Assembly: GCA_007280205.1 (NCBI GenBank)
Contig: QYPX01000013.1
Location: 1 to 42,307 of the forward strand
DNA from: Comamonadaceae bacterium
GTDB taxonomy: Bacteria; Pseudomonadota; Gammaproteobacteria; Burkholderiales; Burkholderiaceae_C
DNA: 42,307 bases
Direction: 5' to 3'
Shown: in pieces, positions 16,349 through 41,115 of the stretch
How the letters are laid out: each line of letters opens with the position of its first letter
How positions within the stretch are numbered: the stretch's first letter is position 1
Made by a program: the position numbers and the translations under genes
Notes under the pieces: generated by a model
What the model was told of the DNA's origin: nothing
Seen by the model: the letters and a program-made list of their open reading frames with translations, nothing else
Database searches by the model: none

Positions 16349-17647
16349 TCAGCCATTCGCAACAGTTCCGTCGCTCAGCAACATTCTTCGTATGGACCCA
16401 GCCAGGTACAAAGACCCGGTAACGAGAATCCAGTGGGCATCAGACATTCGCAGGCACAGGTGCAAGGCATCGCGCGGCGAACCAGCTACCGACGCGGGCA
16501 GAGTATGGGCGGTGACGACTGCCGCCAGTTCCTCGGCACTCCAACCGGGTCGGTTGTCGGGCATCGGAGAACATACAACATGCGCAGCAGCGTCAACAAG
16601 TCGGGACACGATTGCGTCCGCATCCTTGTCTGCAGCCAGCGCCAACAATACGACCGGCCTAGCCGAGAGCGCCGGCTGAGCGCGCAATTCAATCAGCGCG
16701 TCGGCCACGGCAAAGCCCACGTGCGCACCATCGACGACAAGCTCAATCCATTCACGCGACGATGACTCACGACACACGCGGAATCGCTCCAAGCGCCCAG
16801 GAAGAGATGCGCTGCTCGCCACACTGTCGGGTAGGTCATCTTCGGATATGGCGACCGACCGTGTTCGGCTCAGTACTTCACGCACACCCAGAGCATTCAG
16901 CGCACCGCGCGCAACCGCCCAATTTCGCTGGGAAATTGTGGCCGCAGGATTGACACTCACGGGATATATGCTTGCGCCACAAAGACGGGCTGCCTCGTAG
17001 ACGACTCGCCCGGCGCCATCGACAGGTGACAGGGACGTCACAAGCGTGCTTCCCGATTTGACGATGCCGGCCTTCTCGAAGGCGATCTTCTCTACCGTCG
17101 AACCGAGTACTTCGGTGTGCTCCAGCCCCACGTTGGTAACTATGGCAATATCACTTTCAATGACGTTCGTCGAGTCCAGCCGCCCGCCCAGGCCCACCTC
17201 GATAACCGCCCAGTCCAGTTTTGCCCACGCGAACGACAAGAACGCCGCCGCGGTCACCACGTCGAACCAGGTGGATTCCGCGGCTGCCGTGTCCTCATCG
17301 CACGCAGCGGTACGGGCGTCGAGCGCGGTCGTAAGTGACTTGGCCAGCATGGCGTCGTCTATCAGCTCGCAGTTGTGGCTGATGCGTTCATTGATGCGTT
17401 CAATATGCGGAGAGGCATAGCGACCTACGCGCCAACCCGAATGCGCCAGACCCGCCTCAACGAGCGCGCAAACGCTGCCCTTGCCCTTGGTGCCCGTGAC
17501 GTGGACGCTGCGAAATCTGCGCTCGGGGTTTCCAATCCGATAGAGCAGGTCCGTTATCGGCGCCAGGTCCGCCCGCATCTGTCCTCTTGCGCAACGCTCC
17601 CAGTCGATCAACGAGTCCAGGCGGCCAACTGCCTGACTCAGTGACAT
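16349..17647 (-). CDS. Bifunctional folylpolyglutamate/dihydrofolate synthase (FolC)
   Basis: A 432-aa ATP-dependent ligase adding glutamate to folates. The P-loop is VTGTKGKGSVCA, followed by GRYASPHIERINERI; later motifs include VIEVGLGGRLDSTNVI, NVGLEHTEVLG and VVDGAHVGFAVAD (a DGAH motif near the C-terminal domain). The ATG at 17647 gives the normal family length; a longer frame upstream overlaps the membrane-protein gene and is not used. It is the last gene of the minus-strand chain with formate dehydrogenase and Fhs. Polyglutamylated folate is the preferred cofactor form for C1 enzymes, so the position fits a dedicated copy for C1 catabolism. Confidence 0.9.
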   Translation of the reverse strand: MSLSQAVGRLDSLIDWERCARGQMRADLAPITDLLYRIGNPERRFRSVHVTGTKGKGSVCALVEAGLAHSGWRVGRYASPHIERINERISHNCELIDDAMLAKSLTTALDARTAACDEDTAAAESTWFDVVTAAAFLSFAWAKLDWAVIEVGLGGRLDSTNVIESDIAIVTNVGLEHTEVLGSTVEKIAFEKAGIVKSGSTLVTSLSPVDGAGRVVYEAARLCGASIYPVSVNPAATISQRNWAVARGALNALGVREVLSRTRSVAISEDDLPDSVASSASLPGRLERFRVCRESSSREWIELVVDGAHVGFAVADALIELRAQPALSARPVVLLALAADKDADAIVSRLVDAAAHVVCSPMPDNRPGWSAEELAAVVTAHTLPASVAGSPRDALHLCLRMSDAHWILVTGSLYLAGSIRRMLLSDGTVANG

Positions 17648-17672
17648 CGGCGCCTCGCTTCGAATGCGAGGG

Positions 17673-18128
17673 CTAGAAACCGGCGTCACGGATCGCGCAA
17701 ACATCAGCGGTGCGGAAGAAGTGGGACCGCACGCCTTCGTTGCACAGGACCAGGAACAAGAAGGCGTCAACCACCGCCTGAAGCAGCGGAACCAGGTTGC
17801 CGGAACTTCCGAAGTCCTTGAAGATGGTGGGCCCACCGGCGATGGCAAATGCGGTGACCGCGCTGGCGTGATCAAACGTGGAAACGACGAGCCAGCAAAG
17901 CGTGAACAGCCAACTCCACAGGTTGGGGTGGCGCCAGACAGCCAAGAGTACGACCGGTGCCAGGACCGCGACCACGATGTCGATGATCGCCGGAAACAGC
18001 CATGCCGCCGGATCGGTGCCCAACAAGACGCTTTGGATCAGTGGCAACGCGATGAACCGTGGTAGTTGAAGCAGGACCCAAATGGTCAGGGCGATCAATA
18101 CTGGTCGGGGTCGGAGAATCGGTTTCAT
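17673..18128 (-). CDS. Small integral membrane protein, 151 aa
   Basis: Four hydrophobic segments are visible: ALTIWVLLQLPRFIALPLI, LFPAIIDIVVAVLAPVVLLAV, LWSWLFTLCWLVVSTFDHASA and LVPLLQAVVDAFLFLVL. It starts 6 bp after the formate dehydrogenase alpha gene and ends 25 bp before folC, so it is in the operon. No transporter or anchor signature is recognised. It could be a membrane anchor or an unrelated passenger; the partner FDH is of the soluble NAD-linked type, which argues against an anchor. Confidence 0.75.
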   Translation of the reverse strand: MKPILRPRPVLIALTIWVLLQLPRFIALPLIQSVLLGTDPAAWLFPAIIDIVVAVLAPVVLLAVWRHPNLWSWLFTLCWLVVSTFDHASAVTAFAIAGGPTIFKDFGSSGNLVPLLQAVVDAFLFLVLCNEGVRSHFFRTADVCAIRDAGF

Positions 18129-18134
18129 GTGGAC

Positions 18135-20930
18135 TCACTCCTGCACGCTGGCCCGCAACTGCCCGCCGCCGAAACTGCTGATCGCACCCAAGCTTCCGCC
18201 TAGACTCATCTTGACCGCGCAGTACTTGAACTCCGGGATCTTCCCGAACGGATCGAGCACTGGATTGGTCAGCATATTGGCCGCTGCCTCGTAGTAGCAG
18301 AACGGGATGAACAGCGCGCCTCTGGGTGTGCCGTCGTCGGCGCGTGCGTACAGCGTGACGCTGCCGCGGCGCGAAGCCACGGTGATCACGTCTCCGGGTC
18401 TGGCGCCCATGGCGGCCAGGTCCAGCGGGTGCACGGACGCCACCGGATCGGGCTCGATCGCGTCCAGCACCGTGGAACGCCGCGTCATGCTGCCGGTGTG
18501 CCAATGTTCCAACTGGCGCCCGGTGATGAGCACCATCGGGTATTCGGTGTCGGGTCGCTCTGCCGCTGGAATGATGTCGGCAGCGACCAGACGCGCGCGT
18601 CCGCTGGCGGTGGGGAAGCTCTCCGTGAACACCACGGCTTCTCCCGGATCGCCCTCCTGCAGGCAGGGATGGACGACGCCTGATTCTTCCTTGAGACGCT
18701 CCCAGGTGATGCCCGCAATCGACGGCATCGCTTGGCGCAATTCGTTGAAAACGCTCGCGGGGCCAGAGTAATTCCAGGCCAGCCCCAGCCTGCGCGCCAT
18801 CTCCTGGATGATCCACAGATCCTGGCGCGCGTCGCCCGGCGGCGCCAGCGCCTGGCGCCCCAGCTGCACCAGTCGGTCGGTGTTGGTGAAGGTGCCAGTC
18901 TTCTCGGGGAAGGCCGAGGCCGGCAACACGACGTCGGCCAGGTACGCGGTTTCGGTCAGGAAGATGTCCTGCACCACCAGACAGTCCAGCGCGGCCAACG
19001 CGCCCCGGGCGTGCTGCACGTCGGGGTCGGACATGGCGGGGTTCTCGCCCATGATGTACATGCCGCGGATCTGCCCGGCGTGCACCGCGTCCATGATCTC
19101 TACCACCGTGAGGCCCGGTTGCGCGTCCAGCCTGGTTTCCCACAGCGCCTCAAACCTGGCCTGCGCCGCAGGCGTGTTGACGCGCTGGTAGTCGGGGTAC
19201 ATCATGGGCAGCAGCCCGGCGTCGGATGCGCCCTGGACGTTGTTCTGGCCGCGCAAGGGGTGCAAGCCGGTTCCGGGGCGTCCGATCTGGCCCGTGATCA
19301 TCGACAGCGCAATCAGGCAGCGCGCGTTGTCGGTGCCATGCACATGCTGGGACACGCCCATGCCCCACAGGATCATCGAAGCCTTGGACGTGGCGAATAG
19401 GCGCGCCACCTCCTTGATCGTCTGCGCCGCAATGCCGCACAGCGGCGCCATCGCGTCCGCGCTGAAGCCGGCGACATTCGCCTTGAGTTCCTCGTAACCG
19501 CTGGTCCGGTCGTTGATGAACTGCTGATCCACCAGTCCTTCGGCGACGATGGTGTGCAGCATCGCGTTGAGCAGCGCGACGTCGGTGTCGGGCTTGAACT
19601 GCAGGTAGTGATCGGCGTGGCGCGCCAGCTCGGAGCGGCGCGGATCGACCAGTATCAGCTTGGTTCCGGCCTGCACCGCGTTCTTGATCCAGGTGGCGGC
19701 CACCGGGTGGTTCACGATGGGGTTGGAGCCTATCACCAGCACCACATCGGCGTGCATCACGTCGCGCACCGGATTGGAAACCACGCCCGAACCCAAACCC
19801 TCGAGCAGCGCGGCGACGCTGGAAGCGTGACAAAGCCGCGTGCAGTGGTCCACGTTGTTCGTGCGAAAGCCCGTGCGCACCAGCTTCTGGAACAGATAGG
19901 CTTCTTCGTTGCTGCACTTGGCCGACCCCAGACCGGCGAGCGCCTGCGGACCGGCGTTGTCGCGGATGGCGGCCAAACTGCCGCCTGCCAGCGCCAGCGC
20001 CTCTTCCCACGTGGCTTCCCGAAATACCGACAGCGGGTCACCCGGGTCCATCGTGAAGTCTGCAGACTTGGGCGCGTCCGCGCGCCGGATCAGCGGCTTG
20101 GTCAGGCGCTGGCGGTGGTGCACATAGTCAAAGCCGTAGCGTCCCTTGACGCACAGTCGACCTTCGTTCGCCGGACCATCGCGTCCTTCGACGCGCACGA
20201 TCTTGTTTCCCCTGACATGGTAGCTGAGCTGGCAGCCCACGCCGCAGTAGGGGCAGACTGAATCCACCTTCCGATCCCTCGGGTTCAGCCCAGTGTCGCG
20301 CGCCGGCGTCAAAGCACCGGTGGGGCAGGCGCTCACGCATTCGCCGCAGCCCACGCAGCTGCTCAGTGCCATCGGGTCGGCCAGGTCGAAGACGATGGCG
20401 CTGTGCTGGCCACGGTGCGCCAGTCCGATCACGTCGTTCACCTGCACCTCGCGGCAGGCACGCACGCAGCGGGTGCACTGGATGCAGGCGTCAAGATTGA
20501 CGGCGATGGCCGCGTGCGAATGGTCGTGCGCGACCGCGCCGCGCGCGGCAAAGCGCGGCTTGCCCAACTGCAGCTTGCCGGCCCAATGGTCAAGCTCGGA
20601 TGGTAGCGCGTCGCATCGGTCGGGAACGTCGGACTTCAGCAGTTCGAGCACCATCTTTTGCGAATGCAGCGCGCGCGGGCTATCGGTGCGCACATCCATT
20701 CCCGCCTGTGGGCTGCGGCAGCAAGACGGCGCCAGCACGCGTTCGCCCTTGATCTCGACCACGCAGGCGCGGCAGTTGCCTTCGGGTCGCAGTCCTTCCT
20801 TGTGGCAAAGATGCGGAATCTCGATGCCCAGGCGATTCGCCGTCTGCAGCAGCGTCTCGTTCGGCTGCGCAATAACGGCCTGGCCGTTGAGTGTGAAGGC
20901 ACTCGCTTTGGACTCGGGCTGTGTCGTCAT
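18135..20930 (-). CDS. NAD-dependent formate dehydrogenase, molybdopterin alpha subunit
   Basis: A 931-aa subunit oxidising formate to CO2 at a bis-MGD Mo (or W) centre. Order: [2Fe-2S] domain (Cys42, 53, 56, 70), NuoG-like His/Cys segment, two [4Fe-4S] sets (CIQCTRCVRAC near 149-159; CVGCGECVSAC near 192-202), a further [4Fe-4S] with CPYCGVGC (226-233), then the molybdopterin domains. The catalytic residue is Cys at about 367 in DHCTRLCHASSV, where selenocysteine enzymes have Sec. The C-terminal molydopterin-binding domain contains VLITGRQLEHWHTGSMTRRS. The beta-subunit stop directly abuts its ATG. Length and layout match FdsA/Fdh1A. The sulfuration chaperone (FdsC/FdhD type) is not in the window. 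Confidence 0.95.
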   Translation of the reverse strand: MTTQPESKASAFTLNGQAVIAQPNETLLQTANRLGIEIPHLCHKEGLRPEGNCRACVVEIKGERVLAPSCCRSPQAGMDVRTDSPRALHSQKMVLELLKSDVPDRCDALPSELDHWAGKLQLGKPRFAARGAVAHDHSHAAIAVNLDACIQCTRCVRACREVQVNDVIGLAHRGQHSAIVFDLADPMALSSCVGCGECVSACPTGALTPARDTGLNPRDRKVDSVCPYCGVGCQLSYHVRGNKIVRVEGRDGPANEGRLCVKGRYGFDYVHHRQRLTKPLIRRADAPKSADFTMDPGDPLSVFREATWEEALALAGGSLAAIRDNAGPQALAGLGSAKCSNEEAYLFQKLVRTGFRTNNVDHCTRLCHASSVAALLEGLGSGVVSNPVRDVMHADVVLVIGSNPIVNHPVAATWIKNAVQAGTKLILVDPRRSELARHADHYLQFKPDTDVALLNAMLHTIVAEGLVDQQFINDRTSGYEELKANVAGFSADAMAPLCGIAAQTIKEVARLFATSKASMILWGMGVSQHVHGTDNARCLIALSMITGQIGRPGTGLHPLRGQNNVQGASDAGLLPMMYPDYQRVNTPAAQARFEALWETRLDAQPGLTVVEIMDAVHAGQIRGMYIMGENPAMSDPDVQHARGALAALDCLVVQDIFLTETAYLADVVLPASAFPEKTGTFTNTDRLVQLGRQALAPPGDARQDLWIIQEMARRLGLAWNYSGPASVFNELRQAMPSIAGITWERLKEESGVVHPCLQEGDPGEAVVFTESFPTASGRARLVAADIIPAAERPDTEYPMVLITGRQLEHWHTGSMTRRSTVLDAIEPDPVASVHPLDLAAMGARPGDVITVASRRGSVTLYARADDGTPRGALFIPFCYYEAAANMLTNPVLDPFGKIPEFKYCAVKMSLGGSLGAISSFGGGQLRASVQE

Positions 20931-22640
20931 TTAGCCGATCTCCTGCGGGAAGTACCTGATGACGCAGCGGATCGGGTTCGGCGCTGCTTGGCCCAGACCG
21001 CAGATCGACGCGTCGGCCATGGCCTGGGACAAGTCCTCGAGCAGGGACTGATCCCATTTCGGTGCCCGCAGCAGTGCCGCAGCCTTGGCCGTGCCGACGC
21101 GGCACGGCGTGCATTGGCCACAGGATTCGGCGGCAAAGAAATCCATCGTGTTCTGCGCCGCGTCCCTGGCCTTGTCGTGCTGCGAGAGCACGATCACGGC
21201 GGCAGACCCGATGAAGCAGGCGTGCGGGTTCAAGGTGTCAAAGTCCAGCGCGATGTCGGCCAGGGCAGCGGGCAGGATTCCGCCGGAGGCACCGCCGGGC
21301 AGGTAGGCATAGAGTGCGTGGCCGGGAAGCATGCCGCCGCAGTATTCGTCCACCAGTTCGCGCAGCGTGATGCCCGCCGGCGCCAGGTGCACGCCAGGTT
21401 TGCTCACCCTGCCGCTGACCGAAAACGAGCGCAGGCCGGTGCGCCCGTTCCTGCCGTGACCCGCCCACCATTCGCCGCTCTTCTCCAGGATATCGCGAAC
21501 CCAAAACAGGGTTTCCAGGTTGTGCTCCAGCGTGGGGCGGCCAAACAGGCCTACCTGGGCCACGTAGGGCGGGCGCAGCCGTGGCAGGCCGCGCCGGCCT
21601 TCGATGGATTCCATCATCGCGGACTCTTCGCCGCAGATGTAGGCGCCCGCGCCCCGGCGCAGATGGATGAGCGGCAGCGGCGCGGGCGCGTCGGCGCGCA
21701 GCGCAGCCAGCTCACGTGTGAGTATCTCGCGGCAAGCGGCGTACTCGTCGCGCAGATAAAGGTAGATCTCGGCAATGCCCACGACATGTGCTGCGATCAG
21801 CATGCCCTCAAGGAAGCGGTGCGGATCGCGCTCCAGGTACCAGCGGTCCTTGAAGGTGCCGGGCTCGCCCTCGTCGATGTTGACTGCCATCAGACGCGGG
21901 CCGGCTTCGGCGCCGACGATGCGCCACTTGCGTCCCGCCGGAAATCCTGCGCCACCGAGCCCACGCAGACCCGAGTGTTCCATGGCCTTGAAGACCGAGT
22001 CCTGGTCGCGAGTTCCCAGCACGCATTCGGTCAAGGTGCGGTAGCCGCCCGCGGCCCGGTATTGCTGATAGCCCGTGTAGGCGCCCACCACGGGAGCGAG
22101 CGCCTTTTTGCGTACCGCCTCGCACACGCTGGCAACACTGGCGCCGTCGATGGGGTTGTGTCCGACGACCGCCACGGGCGCAGCGTGGCAGCGCCCCACG
22201 CAGGGGACCGGCACGATGCGCACATCTTCCAGGGCCAGCGCCGCCAGCGCCTGGCTCAGTTCCTTGGAGCCGGCCATGGCGCAGGACAACGATTCACACA
22301 CGCGCACGGTGAATGGCGGTGGCGCGGCCTGCCCTTCCTTGACCACGTCGAAATGGTGGTAGAAGGTTGCGACTTCATAGACCTCGGTTTGGGAGAGCTT
22401 GAGTTGCGCTGCAAGCGCCACTATGTGCGCGGCTGAGATATGGCCGCGCGCGTCCTGAATGCGGTGCAGGTACTCGATCAGCAGGTCGCGCCGCAACGGC
22501 TGCGCTCCCAGCAACGCCGTGACCTCGGTCAAAGCCTGCGGATCGACGACGCGGCCCTTGAGGTTCGAACGGGACTTGGCCTTGTGCGCTGCAGCGTCGG
22601 CAATGGGAATGACTCGGTTCGTGCAAGAGGGTTCTGTCAT
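20931..22640 (-). CDS. Formate dehydrogenase beta subunit, fused FdsG-FdsB type
   Basis: A 569-aa protein that joins a NuoE-like and a NuoF-like domain. Residues 1 to about 160 form the thioredoxin-like [2Fe-2S] domain with Cys115, 120, 147 and 151 (VCESLSC and VPCVGRC). Then GLRGLGGAGFPAGRKW and VNIDEGEPGTFKDR mark FMN/NADH binding, YICGEESAMMESIEGRRG the flavin site, and SCGQCTPCRVGT the C-terminal [4Fe-4S] cluster. It passes electrons from the alpha subunit to NAD+. In Fds enzymes these domains are two genes; the fused form is that of Methylorubrum FDH1. The ATG at 22640 was chosen; a TTG further upstream would overlap the hairpin region. Confidence 0.93.
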   Translation of the reverse strand: MTEPSCTNRVIPIADAAAHKAKSRSNLKGRVVDPQALTEVTALLGAQPLRRDLLIEYLHRIQDARGHISAAHIVALAAQLKLSQTEVYEVATFYHHFDVVKEGQAAPPPFTVRVCESLSCAMAGSKELSQALAALALEDVRIVPVPCVGRCHAAPVAVVGHNPIDGASVASVCEAVRKKALAPVVGAYTGYQQYRAAGGYRTLTECVLGTRDQDSVFKAMEHSGLRGLGGAGFPAGRKWRIVGAEAGPRLMAVNIDEGEPGTFKDRWYLERDPHRFLEGMLIAAHVVGIAEIYLYLRDEYAACREILTRELAALRADAPAPLPLIHLRRGAGAYICGEESAMMESIEGRRGLPRLRPPYVAQVGLFGRPTLEHNLETLFWVRDILEKSGEWWAGHGRNGRTGLRSFSVSGRVSKPGVHLAPAGITLRELVDEYCGGMLPGHALYAYLPGGASGGILPAALADIALDFDTLNPHACFIGSAAVIVLSQHDKARDAAQNTMDFFAAESCGQCTPCRVGTAKAAALLRAPKWDQSLLEDLSQAMADASICGLGQAAPNPIRCVIRYFPQEIG

Positions 22641-22686
22641 GGAGGAGGTCCGGTAGTCAGTCACGCTGCCACCAGCATTCGATACA

Positions 22687-22711
22687 GGTAGCAAGCGCCG
22701 CGCTTGCTACC
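22687..22711. terminator. 11-bp perfect hairpin between fhs and formate dehydrogenase genes
   Basis: GGTAGCAAGCG (22687-22697) pairs exactly with CGCTTGCTACC (22701-22711) around a 3-nt loop. It lies between the fhs stop and the FDH beta start. There is no T run on either strand, so it is not a classical terminator; it may attenuate, stabilise the fhs mRNA 3' end or act as an operator. Confidence 0.6.
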
Positions 22712-22721
22712 CGAAGCGTGG

Positions 22722-24395
22722 TCAAAACAGTCCGACGATGCGGCCATCCGCGGTCACGTCGATGACGTTGGCTGCCGGCTTCTTGGGCAGACCCGGCATG
22801 GTCATCACGTCGCCACAAATCATGACGATGAATTCGGCGCCGGCGGACAGCCTGACCTCGCGAATATTCACCACGTGGCCGCTGGGCGCGCCACGCAGTT
22901 GCGGATCCGTGGAAAACGAATACTGGGTCTTGGCGATGCACACCGGGTAGTGCCCGTAGCCGCTTTCCTGCAGGCGGCGAATTTGCGCTCGGATCTTGGT
23001 GTCGGCTGTGATGTCAGAGGCACCATAAATCTTGGTCGCGATGCTCTTGGCCTTTTCCCATAGAGGGTCGCAGTCCTCGTAAACAAATTTGAAATCGGTG
23101 GGCTTGGTTTCGATCAGATTGACAACTGCGCGCGCGACATCGACCGCGCCCTTTCCACCTTCAGCCCAGTGACGCGCCAAGATCACTGGTACATCATGGT
23201 GCGCCATTTTCGTTTGCAGAAGTTGGACTTCGGCCTCGGTGTTGTCGACGAAGTGATTGATCGCAACCACGCAGGGCAAGCCGTAGTGGTTGCGAATATT
23301 GTTGACGTGGCGTTCCAGGTTGGCAATTCCCTTTCCCAGCGCTTTAAGGTCCTCGGTTCCCAGGTCCTTGAGCTCGACACCACCATGGAACTTGAGTGCT
23401 CGAATGGTCGCGACCACAACTACGGCATCAGGGCGCAGGCCCGATTTTCTGCACTTGATGTCGATGAACTTCTCGGCGCCCAGATCGGCACCAAATCCGG
23501 CTTCGGTGACGACGTAGTCGGCCAGCTTTAGCGCTGTCTGCGTTGCAATCACCGAGTTGCAACCGTGCGCTATGTTGGCGAAGGGACCGCCGTGGATAAA
23601 GGCCGGGTTATTCTCCAGCGTTTGCACGAGATTGGGGTTGAGTGCATCCTTCAACAACGCCGCCATTGCGCCATGTACGTTGACGTCGCGTGCATGGATA
23701 GGTTGTTGTTCGGGCGTATACCCGACAACGATGTTTCCCATGCGTTTCTTCAGGTCTTGTAGGCTCGTAGCAAGGCAGAAGATCGCCATGATCTCGCTGG
23801 CAACGACGATGTCAAAGCCATCTTCCCGTGTGTGGCCGTTGTTCGGGCCGCCCATGCCGACAACGATATCCCTTAATGCCCGGTCATTCATATCCATGAC
23901 CCGGCGCCAAGTGACGCGCCGATTGTCAAAGTTCAGTTCGTTGCCGTGATGGATGTGGTTGTCGATGGCCGCAGCGAGCAAATTATTGGCCAGCGCGATG
24001 GCGTTAAAGTCGCCGGTAAAGTGCAGATTGATGTCCTCCATTGGAACGACCTGGGCGTAGCCACCTCCGGCAGCACCGCCTTTGACGCCGAACACCGGCC
24101 CCAGACTGGGTTCGCGCAGGCAGATGATCGCCTTCTTGCCAATGTGGTTCAGCGCATCACCCAGCCCGACGCTCATCGTGGTCTTGCCCTCGCCAGCAGG
24201 GGTTGGGCTAATCGCGGTGACCAGGATCAGTTTGCCGTTAGGCTTGTCCTTGAGCGTGTTCACATATTCAAGCGACACTTTCGCCTTGTAGTGGCCGTAG
24301 GGCACGACATGCTCCTCCGGTATGCCGAGTCTGGTAGCCACTCCCAATATACGGTTCATCGTGGCCTTCTGTGCAATTTCCAGATCAATCGACAT
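22722..24395 (-). CDS. Formate-tetrahydrofolate ligase
   Basis: A 557-aa enzyme interconverting formate, THF and ATP with 10-formyl-THF and ADP. The ATP-binding loop is [19 protein letters not shown]; family blocks include [44 protein letters not shown] and [14 protein letters not shown]. Length is normal. In C1-degrading bacteria it may run in reverse, releasing formate with ATP gain, and the formate dehydrogenase genes directly downstream suit that direction. The start has AAAGGA upstream. The 285-bp leader holds a repeat shared with position 36.3 kb. Confidence 0.97.
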
Positions 24396-24506
24396 TTTCC
24401 AGTCCTTTGGAGAGAGAAAATTGGTGCGGCCACGAAGGGCGGTCCAAAATATTTTCGAGAGAAAAGTTGTGTGCGGACGCTAAGGTGCGAAGGCATCGCC
24501 CATGAC

Positions 24507-24592
24507 AGAACTTTGCTGCAATGTCGGCCGATTCTAGGTAGAGCACGCAAGAAAACTATCCCTCAAACGACATCTCTCGCCGCAAAGGCGTC
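24507..24592 (-). repeat. Dispersed 86-88-bp intergenic repeat, copy 1 (fhs leader)
   Basis: About 85% identical (11 substitutions, 2 single-base gaps) to 36281-36368 in the same orientation. Conserved blocks include ATTCTAGGTAG, CGCAAG, AAACTATCC and TCAAACGAC, ending in the hairpin CGCC-GCAAA-GGCG. This copy sits 112 bp upstream of the fhs start codon. It may be part of a leader RNA, a regulator site or a repeat element. Confidence 0.85.
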
Positions 24593-24680
24593 ATCGCGAC
24601 AAGCCTTCGGGTCTGTGCATCCACGGAAGACACATCCGTTGCGCAATGGGTCAGCCCGGCACAGCGCACTCTGAGCATTT

Positions 24681-25619
24681 TTAGTTCAATAAGCTTTGGA
24701 TGTGTTGAGCTGTCATCAGATCCAGGTGCGCGCCGCCGCCTGACTTGAAGAGTGTGATTTCGGAATCACTGCGCCGTGCGGCGCATCGCCCGGTACATAG
24801 ATCAAACAAGTCCCCTTCAATGTCAGATCTCTGAATCACGCCATTGGCAATTGGCTGGGTCAGATCGCCCACATGTTCGACGGTAAACAAGCGGCTGTCC
24901 ACAAACAGTCGAGACCGGCGCACGGTCTCGTCGTCGGCTTCGCGCATGCAGGGGGTGTAGCCGCCGATCAGGTCGACATGGGTGCCTGGGGACAGCCATG
25001 AGCCGTTGATAAGTGGGCTGTAACTTGTAGTGGCACAACAAACAATGTCCGCGCATTTCACTGCCTCGCCAAGGTCCGAAACAGCTTGCGCGCAAGCAGC
25101 GTCCCGCACGTTCTGTGCAAGAACTTGCGCCTTGTGCGCCGTTCGGTTCCAGACCAACACCCGCTCCAAGTCTGGTCTGATGCTTTGATAGGCCTTTATC
25201 AAAAACGGCGCGAGATTGCCAGCACCCACCATCAGCAAGGTCTTAGCATCTTTGCGCGCCAGGTAGTCTGCACCCAGGGCCGAGTCTGCGGCGGTCTTCC
25301 AATAGGTCAGTTCGGTCCCGTCGATAAGCGCCTGAATGCTGCCGTCAAGGCCATCAAACAGGACATACAAAGCCTGAACAGCCGGTAGGCTGCGGTTGTC
25401 GGGAAAGAGCGTGCAGATCTTGATACCAAGGTTCCTTTCGTGCTGCCAGGCGGGCCAGATGAGAAATCCGTTTTCTGCACCGCTGGCGCTCTTGTGCTGC
25501 ATAAGTACGCGTTCAACTGCGGGGGGTGAGAAGCGGTGCGCCTGACGCAGGTGTTCAATCAGACCTGTGAAGTTCAATCGGCCGGCTATGGCGTCAGCGC
25601 TGATGTAGGCAGGTTGCAT
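24681..25619 (-). CDS. Ornithine cyclodeaminase/mu-crystallin family protein
   Basis: A 312-aa NAD(P)-binding protein of the OCD/mu-crystallin family. N-terminal substrate domain with MQHKSASGAENGFLIWPAW and GIKICTLFPDN; Rossmann motif LLMVGAGNLAPFLIKAY near residue 130; later STSY-type block CCATTSYSPLINGSWL and HVDLIGGYTPCMREAD. Members act as ornithine cyclodeaminase, ketimine or pyrroline-carboxylate reductase, or alanine/NMA dehydrogenases. Here it starts 8 bp after the flavoprotein gene, so it shares an operon with N-demethylating enzymes and might reduce or release a cyclic imine or amine product. The exact reaction cannot be read from sequence. Confidence 0.85.
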   Translation of the reverse strand: MQPAYISADAIAGRLNFTGLIEHLRQAHRFSPPAVERVLMQHKSASGAENGFLIWPAWQHERNLGIKICTLFPDNRSLPAVQALYVLFDGLDGSIQALIDGTELTYWKTAADSALGADYLARKDAKTLLMVGAGNLAPFLIKAYQSIRPDLERVLVWNRTAHKAQVLAQNVRDAACAQAVSDLGEAVKCADIVCCATTSYSPLINGSWLSPGTHVDLIGGYTPCMREADDETVRRSRLFVDSRLFTVEHVGDLTQPIANGVIQRSDIEGDLFDLCTGRCAARRSDSEITLFKSGGGAHLDLMTAQHIQSLLN

Positions 25620-25627
25620 TTGAATCC

Positions 25628-27607
25628 CTAAATTTTCATGCCGATGAGCCGACCCTCGTATATCGCATGCACGGCCAGCCGCGCAGCGACGTTGTCGCCC
25701 GCCATTGAAAACGATACGCCGCTTGCCACGAGTTCATCGGATAGACTGGTTTCGGCCGCATTGGTGGTCGCCAGCACCAGTGCATCGGCAGCGATGCGCG
25801 CCTCGCTGCCGTCCAGCATGTTGCGCACGGTGGCGGCATCGCCGTGCCACTGCGTCACCGCAGACTCAACAAACCATTGCACACCCAGCTTCTTCATCCG
25901 ACCCCTGAGGTTGCCGTCGCCCGCCGTTCGCTGTATCCAGAAACCGACCATGGGCCAGGAGGTGACGACGGTGACCTCGTGGCCCAGTTCGGCCAGATGC
26001 CATGCGGTCCCGCCGCCGCGCCAATCGCCCGTGTCGTCCACCAGAAGCACCCGCTTGCCGGGACGCGCGAGACGCCCCATCACGTCTTCGACGGACCAGA
26101 CGTTGGGCTTGTCCATTCCTGGCATGATTTCCTGTTCTGGCAAAGGTCTTTGAAAACCCGTGGCCGCAGGTTGAGATCCCGTCGCCACTACCAACTCGTC
26201 GGCGTCGAAAGCCATCACCTCATCCGCGTCCATTGGTGCGTTCAGACGAACTTCTACACCCAGTTGCTGCAGCTGGCGTTCGTACCAGGCTATCAGCTCC
26301 AATATCTGGGAACGCCGCGGCTGAAGACCTGCCAGACGAAACGCTCCGCCCAGTTGCGGGGAGGCCTCGGCCAACGTTACCCTGTGCCCCCTTTCGGCGG
26401 CAACCCGCGCAGCCTCCATGCCTGCGGGGCCACCCCCCACCACCAATACCTTCCTGGACTGGACGGCCTTTATGAAACGGTCCCCTCCCCATTCGAACTC
26501 TCGCCCGGCCGATGGATTGACCAGGCACGAGATCCAGTAGTCGCGCGACCTTCTGCCCCAGCACATCTGGTTGCATGAAATGCAGCCGCGCACATCCTCG
26601 GCACGGCCGTCTCGGGCCTTGTTCGCGAGATGAGGATCGGCGATCTGCCCGCGCACGATACTCACCAGGTCCGCCTGCCCCGACGCCACGACGTAGTCTG
26701 CGTTCTCCGGCGTGCGAATATGGCTTTCGGCTTGCACCAGCGCGTAGCGCACGACCTTCTTCAAGGCCTCGGCCAGCGGTGCGCCCAGCTTGTCGGCAAA
26801 CTGGAAAGTTGGAATCAACTCGGCGAAGTTGAAGTAGCCGCCGGTGCCGCAGCTGATGTAATCGATAAGGCGTCTTTCATCCAGCCACGCGGTGATTTCG
26901 CACAGGGTGTCGATTTGCATGGCGATGGAAACGCCGGTATCCACGCTGGCGTTCATGCCGATGATGAACTCATCCCCCACGATCACGCGCGTGCGTCTGA
27001 TGATTTCAGCGCTGAAGCGCATGCGGTTCTCGAGGCTGCCGCCCCAGCTATCGGTATGCCGGTTCGACCATGGCAACCAGAACTGTTCGATGAGACCGTT
27101 GTACGCGCCGAAGAGTTCCACGCCGTCGAAGCCCGCCCTTTGGGCCCGGGCTGCGGCGGCGACAAAGGCTTCAATGATTTCCTCGATCTCAGCCTCGCTC
27201 ATCGCGTGACTGCCATCGGAGTCGTGGTATGAAGGCAAGCCCGAAGGCGACCAGGAGGGCGCATAGGAATTGTCAAAGTCCCCATGTTGTCCTACGTGGT
27301 ACAACTGCTGAATCATCACAACGCCCTCGGCATGACAGGCGTCCACAATGACTTTGAGTGGTGCGACGATGGCGTCATCCGAGTGGCGCATGTTGCCGCG
27401 CGTGAGCACGGCCGTGCGATGCACCGGCACCGGTTCCACCACAATCATCGCCGTCCCGCCCTTGGCCCGCTCCAGGTAATAGGCCAGGTGCCGTTCTCCA
27501 GGGATGCCGTCCTCGGCCATATTGGCAGTGTGAGCGCCAAACACGACACGGTTGCGCAATGTTCTGTGGCGCAGCTTTATGGGGGCGAACAGGTGAGGGA
27601 AATGCAT
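25628..27607 (-). CDS. TMADH/old-yellow-enzyme-type FMN, Fe-S, FAD oxidoreductase
   Basis: A 659-aa protein of the trimethylamine dehydrogenase / 2,4-dienoyl-CoA reductase / N-methylproline demethylase family. Residues 1 to about 370 form an FMN TIM barrel (LFAPIKLRHRTLRNRVVFGAH at the start). The [4Fe-4S] cysteines are 342, 345, 349 and 361 (CISCNQMC ... C). A nucleotide-binding fold begins with VLVVGGGPAGMEAARVAAERG (387 on), and a second one has RVLLVDDTGDWRGGG. The Cys that binds FMN covalently in TMADH is absent (GAHTANMA at that place). The neighbours, an MttB-family protein and a dimethylglycine dehydrogenase homologue, point to N-demethylation of a methylated amine or amino acid. A StcD-like N-methylproline role is possible, not proven. 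Confidence 0.85.
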   Translation of the reverse strand: MHFPHLFAPIKLRHRTLRNRVVFGAHTANMAEDGIPGERHLAYYLERAKGGTAMIVVEPVPVHRTAVLTRGNMRHSDDAIVAPLKVIVDACHAEGVVMIQQLYHVGQHGDFDNSYAPSWSPSGLPSYHDSDGSHAMSEAEIEEIIEAFVAAAARAQRAGFDGVELFGAYNGLIEQFWLPWSNRHTDSWGGSLENRMRFSAEIIRRTRVIVGDEFIIGMNASVDTGVSIAMQIDTLCEITAWLDERRLIDYISCGTGGYFNFAELIPTFQFADKLGAPLAEALKKVVRYALVQAESHIRTPENADYVVASGQADLVSIVRGQIADPHLANKARDGRAEDVRGCISCNQMCWGRRSRDYWISCLVNPSAGREFEWGGDRFIKAVQSRKVLVVGGGPAGMEAARVAAERGHRVTLAEASPQLGGAFRLAGLQPRRSQILELIAWYERQLQQLGVEVRLNAPMDADEVMAFDADELVVATGSQPAATGFQRPLPEQEIMPGMDKPNVWSVEDVMGRLARPGKRVLLVDDTGDWRGGGTAWHLAELGHEVTVVTSWPMVGFWIQRTAGDGNLRGRMKKLGVQWFVESAVTQWHGDAATVRNMLDGSEARIAADALVLATTNAAETSLSDELVASGVSFSMAGDNVAARLAVHAIYEGRLIGMKI

Positions 27608-27666
27608 GGTTTCAAGAGATCAATGGCGCACCGAGCTCTCGTGTTGCACCAAACGTTGGTCGCATG

Positions 27667-29229
27667 TCAGTACCATTGATCCGTCATGGACCCCTTCTTT
27701 CGGTCTCTGAAGTCTCTCAAAGCCTCATCTATCGCGGGGTCCATGCTTGGCGCCTCGTACTCGGCCAACGCCGCCTTCCATCTCGTATTCGCGCGCGTCG
27801 CACTGTCTGTTTTCCCGCTTTCCGACCAACTCTCAAATGGCGTATTGTCCGAAATGGTCGAGTCAAAGAAGGCGGTAGTGTAGTTGGCCATGGTGTGCGC
27901 ACATCCCAGAAAATGACCGCCGGGGCTGACTTCCTTATAGGCATCCAGCGCCAGCGCGTTTTCATCTACGGTGATTCCGCCCAGATAGCTGTGCAGCGCG
28001 CCACAGAAATCGGCGTCCATCATGAATTTTTCGTAACTCATGGACAGCAACCCTTCGAGAAAACCGGCCGAATGCAAAATGAAATTGGCCCCGCAGTGGA
28101 TGGCCGACAGCATGGACATCACGCTCTCCTGCATGGCCTGTCCGTCTGGCAGTTTGGAGGTCGTGAACGAACCGGCGCAGCGCAGCGGCAATCCCAGTCG
28201 GCGCGCCAGCTGCCCTATCACGAGCGAACCCAGTGCTGGCTCGGGGGTGCCGAATGTGGGTGAGCCTGAACGCAATGACATGCTCGACATGAAGTTTCCG
28301 AAAATCACCGGCGCCCCGGGACGCTCAAGCTGGGTCATGGCGCAGCCCACCATCGTTTCAGCCAGCGCCTGTGCAATCGCACCCGCATTCGTGACTGGCG
28401 CCATCGTTCCGCCCAAAATGAACGGCACGATGACTGCCGCTTGATTGGCACGTGCATAGGCACGCGCAGACTTGGTCATCGTGCCATCCCACAGCAACGG
28501 CGAATTCACGTTCACATTGCCCATGATGACGCAGTTCTTGTCCACGAAGGCTTCCCCGAACAACAGACGCGTCATGGCAATGGAGTCCTGCGCGCGCTCC
28601 TCGGAGGTGACCGAGCCCATGAAGGGTTTGTCCGAGTAGCGCGCATGCGCGTACACCATGTCAAGGTGGCGCTTGTTTACCGGCACATCGGTAGGTTCGC
28701 ACACGGTACCGCCAGAGTGGTGCAGCCACGGGCAGGAGTAGGTGAGTTTGACGAAATTCTGAAAGTCCTCCAGCGTGCCGTAGCGACGCCCCCGGTCCAG
28801 ATCCATCACAAACGGAGCGCCATAGGCCGGCGCAAACACCACATTGTTGCCGCCAATTCGCACCGAGTGCGCCGGATTGCGGGCGTGTTGTGTGAACTCT
28901 TTGGGCGCGGTCTTCAGAATATCGCGCAGGTGGCCGGGTTCAAAGCGCACGCGAATGCCTTCAACCTTGGCTCCAGCCTTGCGAAACAAGGCAAGGCATT
29001 CATCGTCATCACGGATGTCCAACCCAACTTCGGCAAGAAGGCGGTCGGTGCTGCTTTCTATTTTCTGCAGGCCTTCCTCTGAGATGACGTCGTAGGCCGG
29101 GATGCATCGTTGGATATACGCCGGTCCGGTGATCTTGGCTTTGGGGTCGCGGCGTTCGCGACCGCCACGGCGCGGCTTGCGGTCTTGCGCTGCGGTCTCG
29201 GCCGTCACCGCCGTCGTCGAGTGAGTCAT
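27667..29229 (-). CDS. Non-pyrrolysine MttB-family (trimethylamine/betaine) methyltransferase
   Basis: A 520-aa member of the MttB superfamily. Characteristic blocks: RLLAEVGLDIRDDDECLALFRKAGA, FAPAYGAPFVMDLDRGRRY, FVKLTYSCPWLHHSGGT, and CGANFILHSAGFLEGLLSMSYEKFMMD. The pyrrolysine-bearing trimethylamine enzymes have an in-frame TAG; this gene has none, so it belongs to the larger non-Pyl group that includes glycine betaine, proline betaine and carnitine methyltransferases. No corrinoid-binding protein or reactivase gene is seen in the window. It begins 14 bp after the dimethylglycine-dehydrogenase-like gene. The N-terminal 30 residues are Arg-rich and not conserved. Confidence 0.88.
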   Translation of the reverse strand: MTHSTTAVTAETAAQDRKPRRGGRERRDPKAKITGPAYIQRCIPAYDVISEEGLQKIESSTDRLLAEVGLDIRDDDECLALFRKAGAKVEGIRVRFEPGHLRDILKTAPKEFTQHARNPAHSVRIGGNNVVFAPAYGAPFVMDLDRGRRYGTLEDFQNFVKLTYSCPWLHHSGGTVCEPTDVPVNKRHLDMVYAHARYSDKPFMGSVTSEERAQDSIAMTRLLFGEAFVDKNCVIMGNVNVNSPLLWDGTMTKSARAYARANQAAVIVPFILGGTMAPVTNAGAIAQALAETMVGCAMTQLERPGAPVIFGNFMSSMSLRSGSPTFGTPEPALGSLVIGQLARRLGLPLRCAGSFTTSKLPDGQAMQESVMSMLSAIHCGANFILHSAGFLEGLLSMSYEKFMMDADFCGALHSYLGGITVDENALALDAYKEVSPGGHFLGCAHTMANYTTAFFDSTISDNTPFESWSESGKTDSATRANTRWKAALAEYEAPSMDPAIDEALRDFRDRKKGSMTDQWY

Positions 29230-29243
29230 AGCGTGTCCTTTTT

Positions 29244-31658
29244 TTAGCTGCGCATGCGCAAACCCTTGGGGTCGTACAGCGCACCGCTTTGCACCTGCGC
29301 CGAATAGCGCTGGCCGTTGATCTCCACATCCACCACTGTGCCCGCCACCGCGACCTCCGTTGGCACATACGCAAACGCCATGGATCTTCCCAGCGCATGC
29401 GCGTAGCCACCGGATGACACGTAACCAATCGCCCTGTCGCCGATCAGCACCGCTTCATCGTTGGACACGTCAATGTCGGTAGTGTGTAAGACCAAGGTAA
29501 CCAGCTTGCTCGTCGGACCTATGGCTTTTTCAAGCAGCGCTGCTTGCTTGCCGATGAACTCCTTGTCCCACTGGATAAAGACGTCCATTCCGCTCTGCGC
29601 CGCGGTGAAGTCGGGCCTGTAGTCCAGCGTCCAAACGCCCCAGGCCTTTTCCAGACGCATACTCATGAGCGCGCGTGCGCCGTACCAACGCAGACCCAGA
29701 CTCTCACCTGCCACGTCAATGGCTTCGGCTAAGCGGCGCTGATAGGGTGGAGACACATAGATCTCGTAGCCCAACTCACCTGAGAAAGATACGCGTACCA
29801 CGATGGCAGGAACACCCGCCACAAAGGTCTTGCGGATATCGAGGAACTTGAAGGCCTCGTTAGACACGTCGTCACGACTCAGCGTCGCGAGCAATTCACG
29901 GGATTTGGGACCAGAGATAGCGATGCCGTGCAGGTCGTCGCTCAGATTTTTGTAACTTACGCCTGCCGACGGCAGATAGCTTTCAAACCAGCGGCGATGT
30001 GCCTCCTGCATAGCGCCCGAGCCAAAGAGCATGAAGTGTCTCTCAGCCAGGCACGCCACCGTTAGGTCCCCGTACAACTTGCCCTTGGGCGTGAGCATGG
30101 GCGTGAGGGCGACGCGCCCGACCTTGGGTACCCGTCCGGCCAGCACATGGTCGAGGTACGCGCGTGCACCATCGCCTTTGACTTCGTGCTTGGCGTAGTT
30201 GGCAATTTCCAGCGCGCCCACGGCTTCGCGCACCGCCTTGACTTCGCGCGCCACAAAGTCGTGTGCACGGGAGCGATTGAAGGTGGGCTGTTCGTGCGCA
30301 TCATCTGGACCATTGGCGAACCACAATGCATGCTCCAACCCGAAGCCCTGACCCCAAACGGCGCCGCGCTCGCTGAGGCGGTCGTAGATCGCCGTCGTCT
30401 TCTGCCGCCTGCCTTTGGGCAAGGTCTCATTCGGGAAGGTCATCACGAAGCGGCGTTCATAGTTTTCCGTGGACTTGACCGTCCCCCAGTCCGGTGAGGC
30501 GAAGTTGCCAAAGCGGGCCACGTCCATGGCCCATACGTCTATGCCGGGTTCGCCGTCGATCATCCACTCGGCCATGCACTTGCCCACACCGCCGCCCTGG
30601 CAAAACCCCGCCATCACGCCGACCGCCACCCAGTAGTTGCGCATTCCCGCAACGGGACCGATCAATGGATTGCCGTCCGGCCCAAAAGTGAACGGACCGT
30701 TGATGAAGTTCTTGATGCCGGTGCGGCCCAGAACGGGAATGCGCTCAAACGCGAGTTCCAAGCGTTCTGCAATACTGTCCAATTGTGGCTGCAGCAACTC
30801 GTGCCCAAAGTCCTTCGGCGTGCCCCTGATCGACCACGGCGTAGCCCGCGGCTCATAGGTTCCTAGCAGCATGCCTTTGCTTTCCTGGCGGAAATACATA
30901 TTTCCTTCGTAGTCGATGCCGGCCGGCAGGCGTTGATTGCCGCGCGCCACGATTTCGGGGATGTCTTCGGTGATCAGGTAGTGGTGCTCCATCGGTTGCA
31001 CCGGAAGGTGTATGCCAGCGAGATGCCCCACCTCGCGTGCCCACAGACCACCTGCGTTGACAATCATCTCGGCGTTGATTGTTCCCTGTTCGGTCACCAC
31101 ATCCCAGCTGCCGTCGCTGCGTTGCCTGGTCTCAAGCACTGGTGTGTGGGTGTGAAATTTTGCACCGTGCACCTGTGCCGCCTTGGCAAAGGCGTATGTC
31201 ACTCCCGACGGGTCCACATCGCCGTCCAGCGGGTCCCACAGTGCCGCAATGTAGCGTTTGGGATCGAGCAATGGGTGCAGCCGAGCGGCCTCCTCGACGC
31301 TGATGAATTCCTGGTCCATCCCCATGTAGCGCGCCTTTGAACGTTCACGCTTGAGGTAGTCATGCCATGCAGGAGTGGAGGCCAGATAAAAGCCCCCCGT
31401 GTTATGCATGCCCACGCTGTGGCCGGAGGTTTCTTCGATTTCCTGGTAGAGCTTGATGGAGTAGCTCTGCAGGCGCGAAATGTTCGGGTCCGAAGAAATG
31501 GTGTGAATCTGCCCTGCTGCGTGCCACGACGAGCCCGATGTGAGCTCGCTGCGCTCGAGCAGCACCACGTCCTTCCAGCCGAACTTGGCCAGGTGAAACA
31601 GGATGGAACAGCCCACCACTCCGCCACCGATAACCACCACCTTTGCATGCGTCTGCAT
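29244..31658 (-). CDS. Dimethylglycine/sarcosine dehydrogenase-like flavoprotein with GcvT domain
   Basis: An 804-aa protein. Residues 1 to about 400 are a DAO-type FAD domain with VVVIGGGVVGCSILFHLAKFG and SGSSWHAAG, where His46 matches the residue that binds FAD covalently in dimethylglycine dehydrogenase. Residues of about 420-800 are a GcvT/aminomethyltransferase folate domain (SGELGYEIYVSPPYQRRLAEA; KAWGVWTLDYRPDFTAAQSG). The family oxidises an N-methyl group and captures the C1 unit as 5,10-methylene-THF. It is the first gene of the minus-strand chain and is divergent from lysR, which probably controls it. Substrate could be dimethylglycine, sarcosine or another N-methyl amino acid. Confidence 0.92.
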   Translation of the reverse strand: MQTHAKVVVIGGGVVGCSILFHLAKFGWKDVVLLERSELTSGSSWHAAGQIHTISSDPNISRLQSYSIKLYQEIEETSGHSVGMHNTGGFYLASTPAWHDYLKRERSKARYMGMDQEFISVEEAARLHPLLDPKRYIAALWDPLDGDVDPSGVTYAFAKAAQVHGAKFHTHTPVLETRQRSDGSWDVVTEQGTINAEMIVNAGGLWAREVGHLAGIHLPVQPMEHHYLITEDIPEIVARGNQRLPAGIDYEGNMYFRQESKGMLLGTYEPRATPWSIRGTPKDFGHELLQPQLDSIAERLELAFERIPVLGRTGIKNFINGPFTFGPDGNPLIGPVAGMRNYWVAVGVMAGFCQGGGVGKCMAEWMIDGEPGIDVWAMDVARFGNFASPDWGTVKSTENYERRFVMTFPNETLPKGRRQKTTAIYDRLSERGAVWGQGFGLEHALWFANGPDDAHEQPTFNRSRAHDFVAREVKAVREAVGALEIANYAKHEVKGDGARAYLDHVLAGRVPKVGRVALTPMLTPKGKLYGDLTVACLAERHFMLFGSGAMQEAHRRWFESYLPSAGVSYKNLSDDLHGIAISGPKSRELLATLSRDDVSNEAFKFLDIRKTFVAGVPAIVVRVSFSGELGYEIYVSPPYQRRLAEAIDVAGESLGLRWYGARALMSMRLEKAWGVWTLDYRPDFTAAQSGMDVFIQWDKEFIGKQAALLEKAIGPTSKLVTLVLHTTDIDVSNDEAVLIGDRAIGYVSSGGYAHALGRSMAFAYVPTEVAVAGTVVDVEINGQRYSAQVQSGALYDPKGLRMRS

Positions 31659-32707: not shown

Positions 32708-33323
32708 TGCATCTCGATTCAGTTAGCACCCCGTGAACGAAGATGTCGTGGGCCTGCATCGGAACCCGCTCCAGCAATTGCAGGTCAAACGCGCCTGCGA
32801 CGATCCAGGGCGTTGCGCCCAGGTCCAGGCAGGACCTAAGCAGCTTGTCGTAGTAACCCTTTCCGTACCCGACGCGTCCGCCCTGCGGGTCAAACGCGAC
32901 TCCGGGAGCAAGGACAAGATCGAGTGACTGCGCTGTCGCCAACTTGCAAGTTGCCGGATTGGGCTCGCGTATTCCCCACGGACCGTCGACCAGGGCGTCT
33001 TTATCAGTACCCACAAGGTAGAGATCGAGGCAATTCATTTTTTTGTTGATCCTGGGCAGTACCAGCGTCTTGCCACACCTATGAACTTCGGCGATGAATT
33101 CCACCGTGTCCATCTCGCTGCCAAAGCTGCAGTACGCCACGACGACGCGTGCGTGGCGGAATGCGTCCATGCCGAAGATCATCTCGACGATCGCCTGGCT
33201 TTGCTGCCGGTGTTCGGCGGTGGACAGCCCCTTTCTTTCCCTCAGAATTCTGTCCCTTACTTGCGCCTTATCGACATGGACGGCCGACGATTCGGGAAAT
33301 TCGGCTTGGCTGTCTTGCGTCAT
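32622..33323 (-). CDS. 5-formyltetrahydrofolate cyclo-ligase
   Basis: A 233-aa enzyme converting 5-formyl-THF to 5,10-methenyl-THF with ATP. It shows the family signature GVAFDPQGGRVGYGKGYYDKLL and RINKKMNCLDLYLV; the N-terminal helix KAQVRDRILRERKGLS is also typical. The C-terminal 30 residues (after VLTESRCIICP) are longer than the family norm and overlap the lysR 3' end. It lies 45 bp after the enolase-family gene on the same strand. Cyclo-ligase clears 5-formyl-THF, a side product that inhibits folate enzymes, so it suits high C1-folate flux. Confidence 0.92.
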   Translation of the reverse strand: MTQDSQAEFPESSAVHVDKAQVRDRILRERKGLSTAEHRQQSQAIVEMIFGMDAFRHARVVVAYCSFGSEMDTVEFIAEVHRCGKTLVLPRINKKMNCLDLYLVGTDKDALVDGPWGIREPNPATCKLATAQSLDLVLAPGVAFDPQGGRVGYGKGYYDKLLRSCLDLGATPWIVAGAFDLQLLERVPMQAHDIFVHGVLTESRCIICPTQPPLPASSSNTQRRCAIPDLSGQ

Positions 33324-34550: not shown

Positions 34551-34578
34551 ATTGTGCTTCCAATGGCCATTCAGAAAG

Positions 34579-36545: not shown

Positions 36546-36588
36546 TGACTGCCACGAGCAGCAACAACCAAGAAGGAGACATCGACAA

Positions 36589-41062: not shown

Positions 41063-41115
41063 CACGGTTCTCAGCAAAATCTGATTTAGGGGCGCTCCCC
41101 CGCGATGAATGGCAC

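Follow-up and report, generated by a model that had tools for sequence, protein, structure and literature searches.

A candidate locus for use of a cyclic betaine, most likely proline betaine, by way of cobalamin and folate in a Comamonadaceae genome

Proteins of the MttB type methylate a corrinoid protein and not tetrahydrofolate (THF) (PMC8604678, PMC12478193). An aerobic system of this kind, MtgBCD(E), is known from the marine bacterium Ruegeria pomeroyi and from Phaeobacter, with glycine betaine as its shown substrate, and further MttB paralogues have been suggested to take other compounds (PMC12478193, 2025); in the anaerobic acetogen Eubacterium limosum, MtpB, a proline betaine methyltransferase of the same superfamily, works with a shared corrinoid protein and THF as acceptor (PMC8604678). 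Stachydrine (proline betaine), an osmolyte of plants, also serves as a signal in nodulation (PMC9197100, PMC12239276); in its catabolism StcD is described as an N-methylproline demethylase (PMC12239276). The present report concerns nine genes in the draft genome of a Comamonadaceae bacterium of the Limnohabitans family (assembly GCA_007280205.1, 4.19 Mb in 276 contigs, 84% complete), all verified on the minus strand at positions 16349-31658 of a 42,307-nucleotide stretch of contig QYPX01000013.1 (the window). To judge from sequence and gene neighbourhood, they may well belong to a locus for full use of a cyclic imino-acid betaine, most likely proline betaine. In their order along the strand they are:

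29244..31658, minus strand, dimethylglycine dehydrogenase (DmgDH)-like flavoprotein fused to GcvT, 804 amino acids (Pfam DAO, FAO_M, GCV_T, GCV_T_C)
27667..29229, minus strand, MttB superfamily protein without pyrrolysine, 520 amino acids (PF06253, 750 bits; tree)
25628..27607, minus strand, TMADH2, a flavoprotein (FMN/FeS/FAD) of the trimethylamine dehydrogenase (TMADH)/dienoyl-CoA reductase type (Oxidored_FMN and Pyr_redox_2)
24681..25619, minus strand, OCD/mu-crystallin family protein, probable Delta1-pyrroline/piperideine-2-carboxylate reductase (NF004793)
22722..24395, minus strand, Fhs, formate-THF ligase (PF01268, 892 bits; NF010030, 917 bits, above its cut-off of 652)
20931..22694, minus strand, FdhB, NuoE-NuoF fusion subunit of NAD-linked formate dehydrogenase (2Fe-2S_thioredx, Complex1_51K, SLBB, NADH_4Fe-4S)
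18135..20930, minus strand, FdhA, molybdopterin formate dehydrogenase alpha subunit with NuoG-like N-terminus (TIGR01591, 756 bits, above its cut-off of 666)
17673..18128, minus strand, small hydrophobic membrane protein, 151 amino acids (from its sequence)
16349..17647, minus strand, FolC, folylpolyglutamate/dihydrofolate synthase (TIGR01499, 277 bits, above its cut-off of 163)

Like the MtgBCD(E) bacteria (PMC12478193), this aerobe has an MttB protein, a separate B12 protein, a pterin-binding methyltransferase, MetF2, DUF1638 and RamA, and the methyl group would likewise be oxidised by a THF route; the MttB protein, however, belongs to another clade, linked to the demethylase HpbA, and there is an extra unit of Fhs, formate dehydrogenase and FolC. 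The likeness to MtpB is one of description, not of compared sequences, and would extend to proline betaine as the substrate proposed here. With stachydrine catabolism by HpbA/StcD (PMC12239276) the locus would share the intermediate N-methylproline, and, LysR aside, no gene stands beside MttB of this clade more often than HpbA (among the best 80 of 586 loci), but no HpbA was found in the genome as assembled, the best match (36%) being the window's own TMADH2, and DmgDH-GcvT stands upstream of MttB. DmgDH-GcvT agrees with dimethylglycine dehydrogenase (5L46, 4PAB) and dimethylglycine oxidase (1PJ5) in its length, in the order of its domains and in the key residues that align, and differs in standing beside an MttB of the HpbA-linked clade. 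With its NuoG-like FdhA N-terminus and fused NuoE-NuoF FdhB, the two-subunit NAD-linked formate dehydrogenase, presumably of the type labelled fdh1AB, is in no way unusual. Among the papers listed in literature searches, mainly from outside the subscription journals, none assigns, to judge from its title and the opening of its abstract, an aerobic MttB protein to proline betaine. The proposed route is a new combination of known parts.

An earlier note, made from the sequence of the window alone, had described nine genes on one strand, mostly with short gaps, and all were found, with Pfam scores far exceeding chance (MTTB 750 bits, FTHFS 892, DAO 236, GCV_T 186, Molybdopterin 255). Neighbouring genes are separated by 0-59 bp with the sole exception of OCD and fhs, and because of the 285 bp between these two the nine genes are probably two transcription units, the first running from dmgdh-gcvT through mttB and the TMADH-like gene to OCD, the second from fhs through fdhB, fdhA and the membrane gene to folC. 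The nine genes cannot be shown to be a single operon, MttB being present in none of 16 Fhs neighbourhoods and none of 12 FdhAB neighbourhoods of relatives (counts that leave out locus L185). Scans for promoters (9 found, 5.5 expected) and terminators (13 found, 16.6 expected) were near chance. The start of FolC is the first plausible ATG, at 17647, the 508-amino-acid reading frame from 17875 being over-long. The 151-amino-acid membrane protein has no NCBIfam match; a Pfam scan of this protein was not made.

The window MttB matches PF06253 over its full length without internal stops, hence without pyrrolysine, and scores 257 bits against TIGR02369, below the cut-off of 525; it is proposed, from its sequence, to be a quaternary-amine:corrinoid methyltransferase. 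That MttB alone passes a methyl group to THF was rejected, a corrinoid protein being the acceptor (PMC8604678, PMC12478193); such an enzyme depends on a corrinoid protein together with a corrinoid:THF methyltransferase, a reductive activase and a MetF that oxidises methyl-THF. The B12-binding family PF02310 has seven matches in the genome and none on the window's contig. One of them is on contig C66, where its neighbours are a pterin-binding methyltransferase, a MetF paralogue and a RACo/RamA protein; DUF1638 and a MetF C-terminal domain lie between these core genes, and PurU, a formyl-THF deformylase, lies further out, so that absence of the corrinoid machinery from the genome was also rejected. 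The window ends with exactly the 141 bases with which C66 begins, and from this overlap the genes run RamA, MtgD, MetF2, DUF1638, MtgC. An overlap of exactly 141 bp is the pattern of neighbouring contigs in a k=141 assembly graph, so the window likely adjoins C66, a branch point being possible. In relatives G552, G437 and G648 a homologue (86-88% identical over 391 amino acids) of BetB, the betaine-aldehyde dehydrogenase at the window's right end, lies within about 1.5 kb of RamA; in G477 none was seen in the 20 kb examined. No end overlap with the window was found in either orientation for whole contigs C128, C215, C200 and C243 or for partial stretches of C148 and C165. The gene order of C66 resembles that of an annotated Sinorhizobium meliloti locus and two Paracoccus loci, and the same kinds of genes stand beside MttB in loci L263-L265.

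FolD (PF00763) is encoded twice, on contigs C143 and C148, which agrees with the observation in the earlier note that the window holds no methylene-THF dehydrogenase/cyclohydrolase and answers its suggestion to look for folD in the genome. Because C66 holds the corrinoid core and FolD is encoded elsewhere, the genome, by its sequence, encodes an aerobic MtgBCD-type system. The case that the chain needs the C66 proteins is strong, and they would be the partners of the window MttB. The path once proposed, from N-demethylation by way of THF and formate to CO2 and NADH, is thus supported, but as first drawn it lacked the corrinoid protein, MtgD, RamA and MetF of C66.

MttB is rare among relatives. 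With the protein as query (E 1e-100), this genome is the only one of 399 in the order with a match; PF06253 occurs in 7 of 298 family genomes and the RACo C-terminal family in 10, with both in 6 (Fisher p 1.6e-9); G504, the one genome that has MttB but no RamA match, is 76% complete. The present genome has just two PF06253 matches, in the window and on C148. In a tree of 114 proteins, the window MttB falls in a clade of 19 beta- and gammaproteobacterial rows (support 0.995; one locus is counted twice), nested in a larger clade of 95 (0.974) to which the HpbA-linked loci belong. The C148 protein, 55% identical to that of the window and 85% to an Azoarcus protein, groups apart from these, with 4YYC, in a clade of 12 (0.984), which includes the alphaproteobacterial MttB beside MtgC-MtgD-RamA; the Azoarcus locus carries FolD, a choline transporter protein, betA and betB. 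The window MttB therefore lies outside the clade of MttB proteins in glycine betaine contexts, as a matter of clade and not of activity.

Gene neighbourhoods were compared by a scan of genome contigs with a seven-sequence alignment, the best 80 of 586 confirmed loci being used and an HpbA homologue being a protein at least 55% identical to one of Rhodobacter CZR27, which we take, from its record name, to be 'N-methyl-L-proline N-demethylase HpbA'. An HpbA homologue is present in 45 of these 80 loci; in 42 it follows mttB on the same strand at a distance of up to 2.5 kb, and in 30 of these at no more than 300 bp. A divergent LysR gene begins the region upstream of mttB, at most 600 bp away, in 50 loci; other neighbours are fewer (TMADH2 in 7, DmgDH in 5, the enolase-type gene in 3). 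The other MttB type, taken for contrast, was represented by 11 loci (8-29 kb; 7 from this family or Azoarcus, 4 alphaproteobacterial), none of which has HpbA (Fisher p 5e-4, relatedness ignored), while 4 hold a corrinoid core and 6 hold FolD, GlyA, SdaA or Sox genes. In CZR27 itself, MttB, a Rieske oxygenase, glycine betaine/proline (ProX-type) transport genes and hpbA lie within about 13 kb; G477 has the order LysR, MttB, HpbA, TMADH2, OCD. A homologue of HpbA is encoded on pSymB of S. meliloti (1108030-1110063) and may be StcD. From this linkage, the substrate of the window MttB is rather probably a cyclic imino-acid betaine; the donor named earlier, a betaine, is retained, but the MttB clade and its tie to HpbA make one of the proline type likelier than glycine betaine.

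The enzymes that follow demethylation are in keeping with such a substrate, at least in predicted family. TMADH2 scores 256 bits against 2,4-dienoyl-CoA reductase (1PS9), the Cys pattern of which it matches, and 201 against TMADH (1DJQ), so its best solved match is not a trimethylamine dehydrogenase; neither is it the orthologue of HpbA, but a paralogue (36% identical), the two being separate, side-by-side genes in G477. Proteins 75-81% identical to it stand beside OCD in G437, G477, G575 and G504, which are all four relatives found with TMADH2, and HpbA precedes TMADH2 in three of them; none was seen in G504, the contig of which ends 0.5 kb upstream. In Shinella, proline/glycine betaine transport genes are followed by a TMADH2 homologue and an Ldh-family gene, and some Ldh-family members reduce pyrroline-2-carboxylate. 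OCD scores 345 bits against NF004793, above its cut-off of 322, and 154 against an archaeal alanine dehydrogenase model with a cut-off of 409; it is, by sequence family, a probable Delta1-pyrroline/piperideine-2-carboxylate reductase.

DmgDH-GcvT scores 609 bits against dimethylglycine dehydrogenase 5L46 and aligns at full length with it and with 4PAB (about 600 bits). DAO, FAO_M, GCV_T and GCV_T_C follow in order, and the His of the flavin motif is kept, as is an Asp at the position that holds Asp in 1PJ5 and Ala in 3GSI; the roles of these residues (flavin-motif His, catalytic Asp) are presumed, and they would fit a working DMGDH/GcvT enzyme. The protein is proposed to be a THF-linked demethylase of a tertiary N-methyl imino acid. 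DmgDH proteins 72-85% identical to it occur in loci L024, L044, L083 and L106, directly upstream of MttB in the last three and after MttB and an MR_MLE gene in L024, and HpbA was not seen in L024, L083 or L106, the L106 stretch being only 3.8 kb. Beside other MttB types, DmgDH proteins are 48-52% identical in five loci and 31-38% for the two copies of L260.

Four further genes of the window bear on the proposed pathway and its alternatives:

31799..32707, plus strand, divergent LysR regulator, 140 bp upstream of dmgdh-gcvT (Pfam)
32622..33323, minus strand, 5-formyl-THF cyclo-ligase (TIGR02727, 149 bits, above its cut-off of 85)
33369..34685, minus strand, enolase-superfamily protein of an MttB-linked subfamily (51-53% identical to MR_MLE proteins in L024, L066, L091 and L114)
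41116..42307, minus strand, BetB, betaine-aldehyde dehydrogenase, incomplete at the contig's right end (NF009725, 660 bits, above its cut-off of 593)

In the pathway proposed, MttB would transfer one N-methyl group of the betaine to Co(I) of MtgC, from which MtgD would hand it on to THF, RamA (with DUF1638) repairing oxidised cobalamin. DmgDH-GcvT would then oxidise the remaining N-methyl group of N-methylproline, to be caught as methylene-THF, filling the part that HpbA may have in relatives. TMADH2 and the OCD reductase would convert the D- or ring-oxidised imino acid (Delta1-pyrroline-2-carboxylate) to L-proline, a role that we infer from their neighbourhoods and families. MetF2 would oxidise methyl-THF to methylene-THF and FolD, encoded elsewhere, would carry it to formyl-THF; formate would be released by Fhs with ATP or by PurU without it, and FdhAB would oxidise it to CO2 with NADH. 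FolC and 5-formyl-THF cyclo-ligase may enlarge and protect the folate pool. Catalysis and substrate are predictions throughout, while gene content, the overlap of contig ends, conserved linkage and phylogeny are observed directly. The known aerobic breakdown of proline betaine begins with an oxygenase and involves a demethylase of N-methylproline. Taken jointly, two extensions are offered tentatively: that dimethylated cyclic imino-acid betaines could be used here with neither a Rieske oxygenase nor free formaldehyde, one N-methyl group going by way of cobalamin to methyl-THF and the other by DmgDH-GcvT to methylene-THF, and that the MttB clade, found in contigs titled as beta-, gamma- and alphaproteobacterial and given no assignment in the literature consulted, might be a proline-betaine-type family. 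The Rieske oxygenase of CZR27 had no match in this genome, in a search that lacked a positive control.

Several observations weigh against this pathway. No HpbA is seen in the available stretch of 35 of the 80 MttB loci, 27 of these stretches being longer than 14 kb, and one of the 45 copies (L075) is truncated; the loci are related, so their counts are not independent, and with the genome 84% complete the absences from it are weak. Locus L044 holds both DmgDH and HpbA, so that replacement of the one by the other is not strict, and in several loci from Rhodobacteraceae MttB adjoins TMADH2 with no HpbA present, so TMADH2 may itself be a demethylase. If the window DmgDH is the only one of the genome (others were not searched for), it may serve the dimethylglycine of the second MttB. 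The closest solved match of the window MttB, 4YYC (606 bits, followed by 2QNE with 412 and 9YCE, 'Glycine betaine methyltransferase', with 408), falls in the other clade, and BetB beside the corrinoid core favours use of choline or glycine betaine. Finally, Fhs, FdhAB and FolC stand together beside MttB in no other locus examined.

Evidence for the one-carbon route itself, from methyl group through THF to CO2, is strong at the level of predicted function, as genes for every step from methyl-THF to CO2 are present in the genome. MetF is encoded twice (contigs C51 and C66), and second copies of Fhs (C243) and FdhA (C200) mean that the set in the window is an extra one. The alpha-subunit cut-off passed by FdhA and the NuoE/NuoF-type second subunit identify an NAD-linked formate dehydrogenase. 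Fhs would work here in the direction of formate release, and the gain of ATP once ascribed to it is possible but competes with the ATP-free exit through PurU. Among 299 family genomes, Fhs has matches in 45 and the FdhA alpha subunit in 161 (E 1e-200 for FdhA).

It is somewhat unlikely, whichever the substrate, that the Fhs-FdhBA-FolC genes are an independent operon merely downstream of the others. The 285-bp gap would suit such an arrangement, as would the second copies and the separation of the two enzymes in nearly all relatives examined: Fhs and FdhAB share the same 20 kb in 1 of the 16 Fhs neighbourhoods, Fhs appears in none of the 12 FdhAB neighbourhoods, and a FolC-like gene (32-44% identical) adjoins fhs in 3 of the 16. 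The fdhAB genes have 66% G+C (80-84% at third positions) against 57-62% in the other genes of the cluster, so they may have arrived separately. Against independence stand the shared strand, the short gaps inside each unit, a one-carbon product that fits, a further folate gene (the 5-formyl-THF cyclo-ligase) on the upstream side, and the occurrence of formate dehydrogenase genes in two other MttB loci, L030 and L084, as looser, more distant parallels (34-36% identity).

The main rival on the substrate, because BetB adjoins the core and DmgDH may be needed for dimethylglycine, is a glycine betaine locus in which MttB would yield dimethylglycine, DmgDH-GcvT sarcosine, and TMADH2 or the SoxBA of C148 glycine, with the same folate route to CO2. 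The full-length alignment with 5L46 and 4PAB, the solved matches of MttB, the BetB gene and MtgCD core next door, and the SoxBA, GlyA and SdaA genes on C148 all speak for it. This reading is nevertheless unlikely, since C148 has its own MttB in the glycine-betaine-context clade with 4YYC, the window-type clade is tied to HpbA, and among the window proteins scanned GlyA, SdaA and Sox had no match whereas an imino-acid reductase was matched. Three successive demethylations, by MttB, DmgDH and TMADH2, of the trimethylated betaine of an alpha-amino acid that is not glycine (for example alanine betaine), with OCD as an amino-acid dehydrogenase, would account for three N-demethylase-like enzymes in a row with an OCD-family protein, and come near the earlier chain taken literally, but are improbable in view of the OCD scores, which miss the alanine dehydrogenase cut-off yet pass that of the pyrroline-2-carboxylate reductase, and of HpbA being commoner than DmgDH as a partner (45 against 5 of the best 80 loci).

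The second MttB locus of the genome (L010, on C148) also holds FolD, GlyA, SdaA, SoxBA, EtfBA and a peptide-type ABC transporter, and is a probable locus for conversion of glycine betaine to serine and pyruvate. A third MttB type, 43-44% identical to that of C148 and paired with DmgDH, is found in relatives (L250, L258, L259), with SoxBA also present in L250. A family-5 solute-binding protein is encoded at 36541-38157 of the window without adjoining permeases; its homologue in G477 (69%) lies 8 kb from an MttB of the C148 type (L253), and C148 carries permeases and an ATPase but no homologue of the binding protein in the 20 kb compared. A GFA-family (glutathione-dependent formaldehyde-activating enzyme) protein (40709-41119) adjoins BetB. 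The enzyme encoded by the enolase-type gene is not a plain cis-3-hydroxyproline dehydratase, as it scores 110 bits against a cut-off of 500 (the set of models used names none for the betaine racemase), and five aligned proteins of the kind have no Lys-x-Lys at the place usual for that motif; FEGK, FSTH and FWCYS are conserved in the subfamily near this MttB type (window, L024, L066, L091, L114). The first 13000 nucleotides of the window hold mobile-element genes (YqaJ, RecT-like, H-NS-like, DUF3987 and two tyrosine integrases, which flank a tRNA-Gly(CCC) at 7006-7079), separated from the catabolic locus by two transposase genes (13663-15912). No copies of the 18-base words of this tRNA and of the bases after it were found in the window.

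The proteins of this MttB clade are now annotated in their records as 'trimethylamine methyltransferase family protein'. If the reading in favour of proline betaine is true, many rhizobia and betaproteobacteria would own a B12-dependent alternative for the use of proline betaine, and in the bacterium described here one locus would take an N-methyl group through almost every step to CO2.

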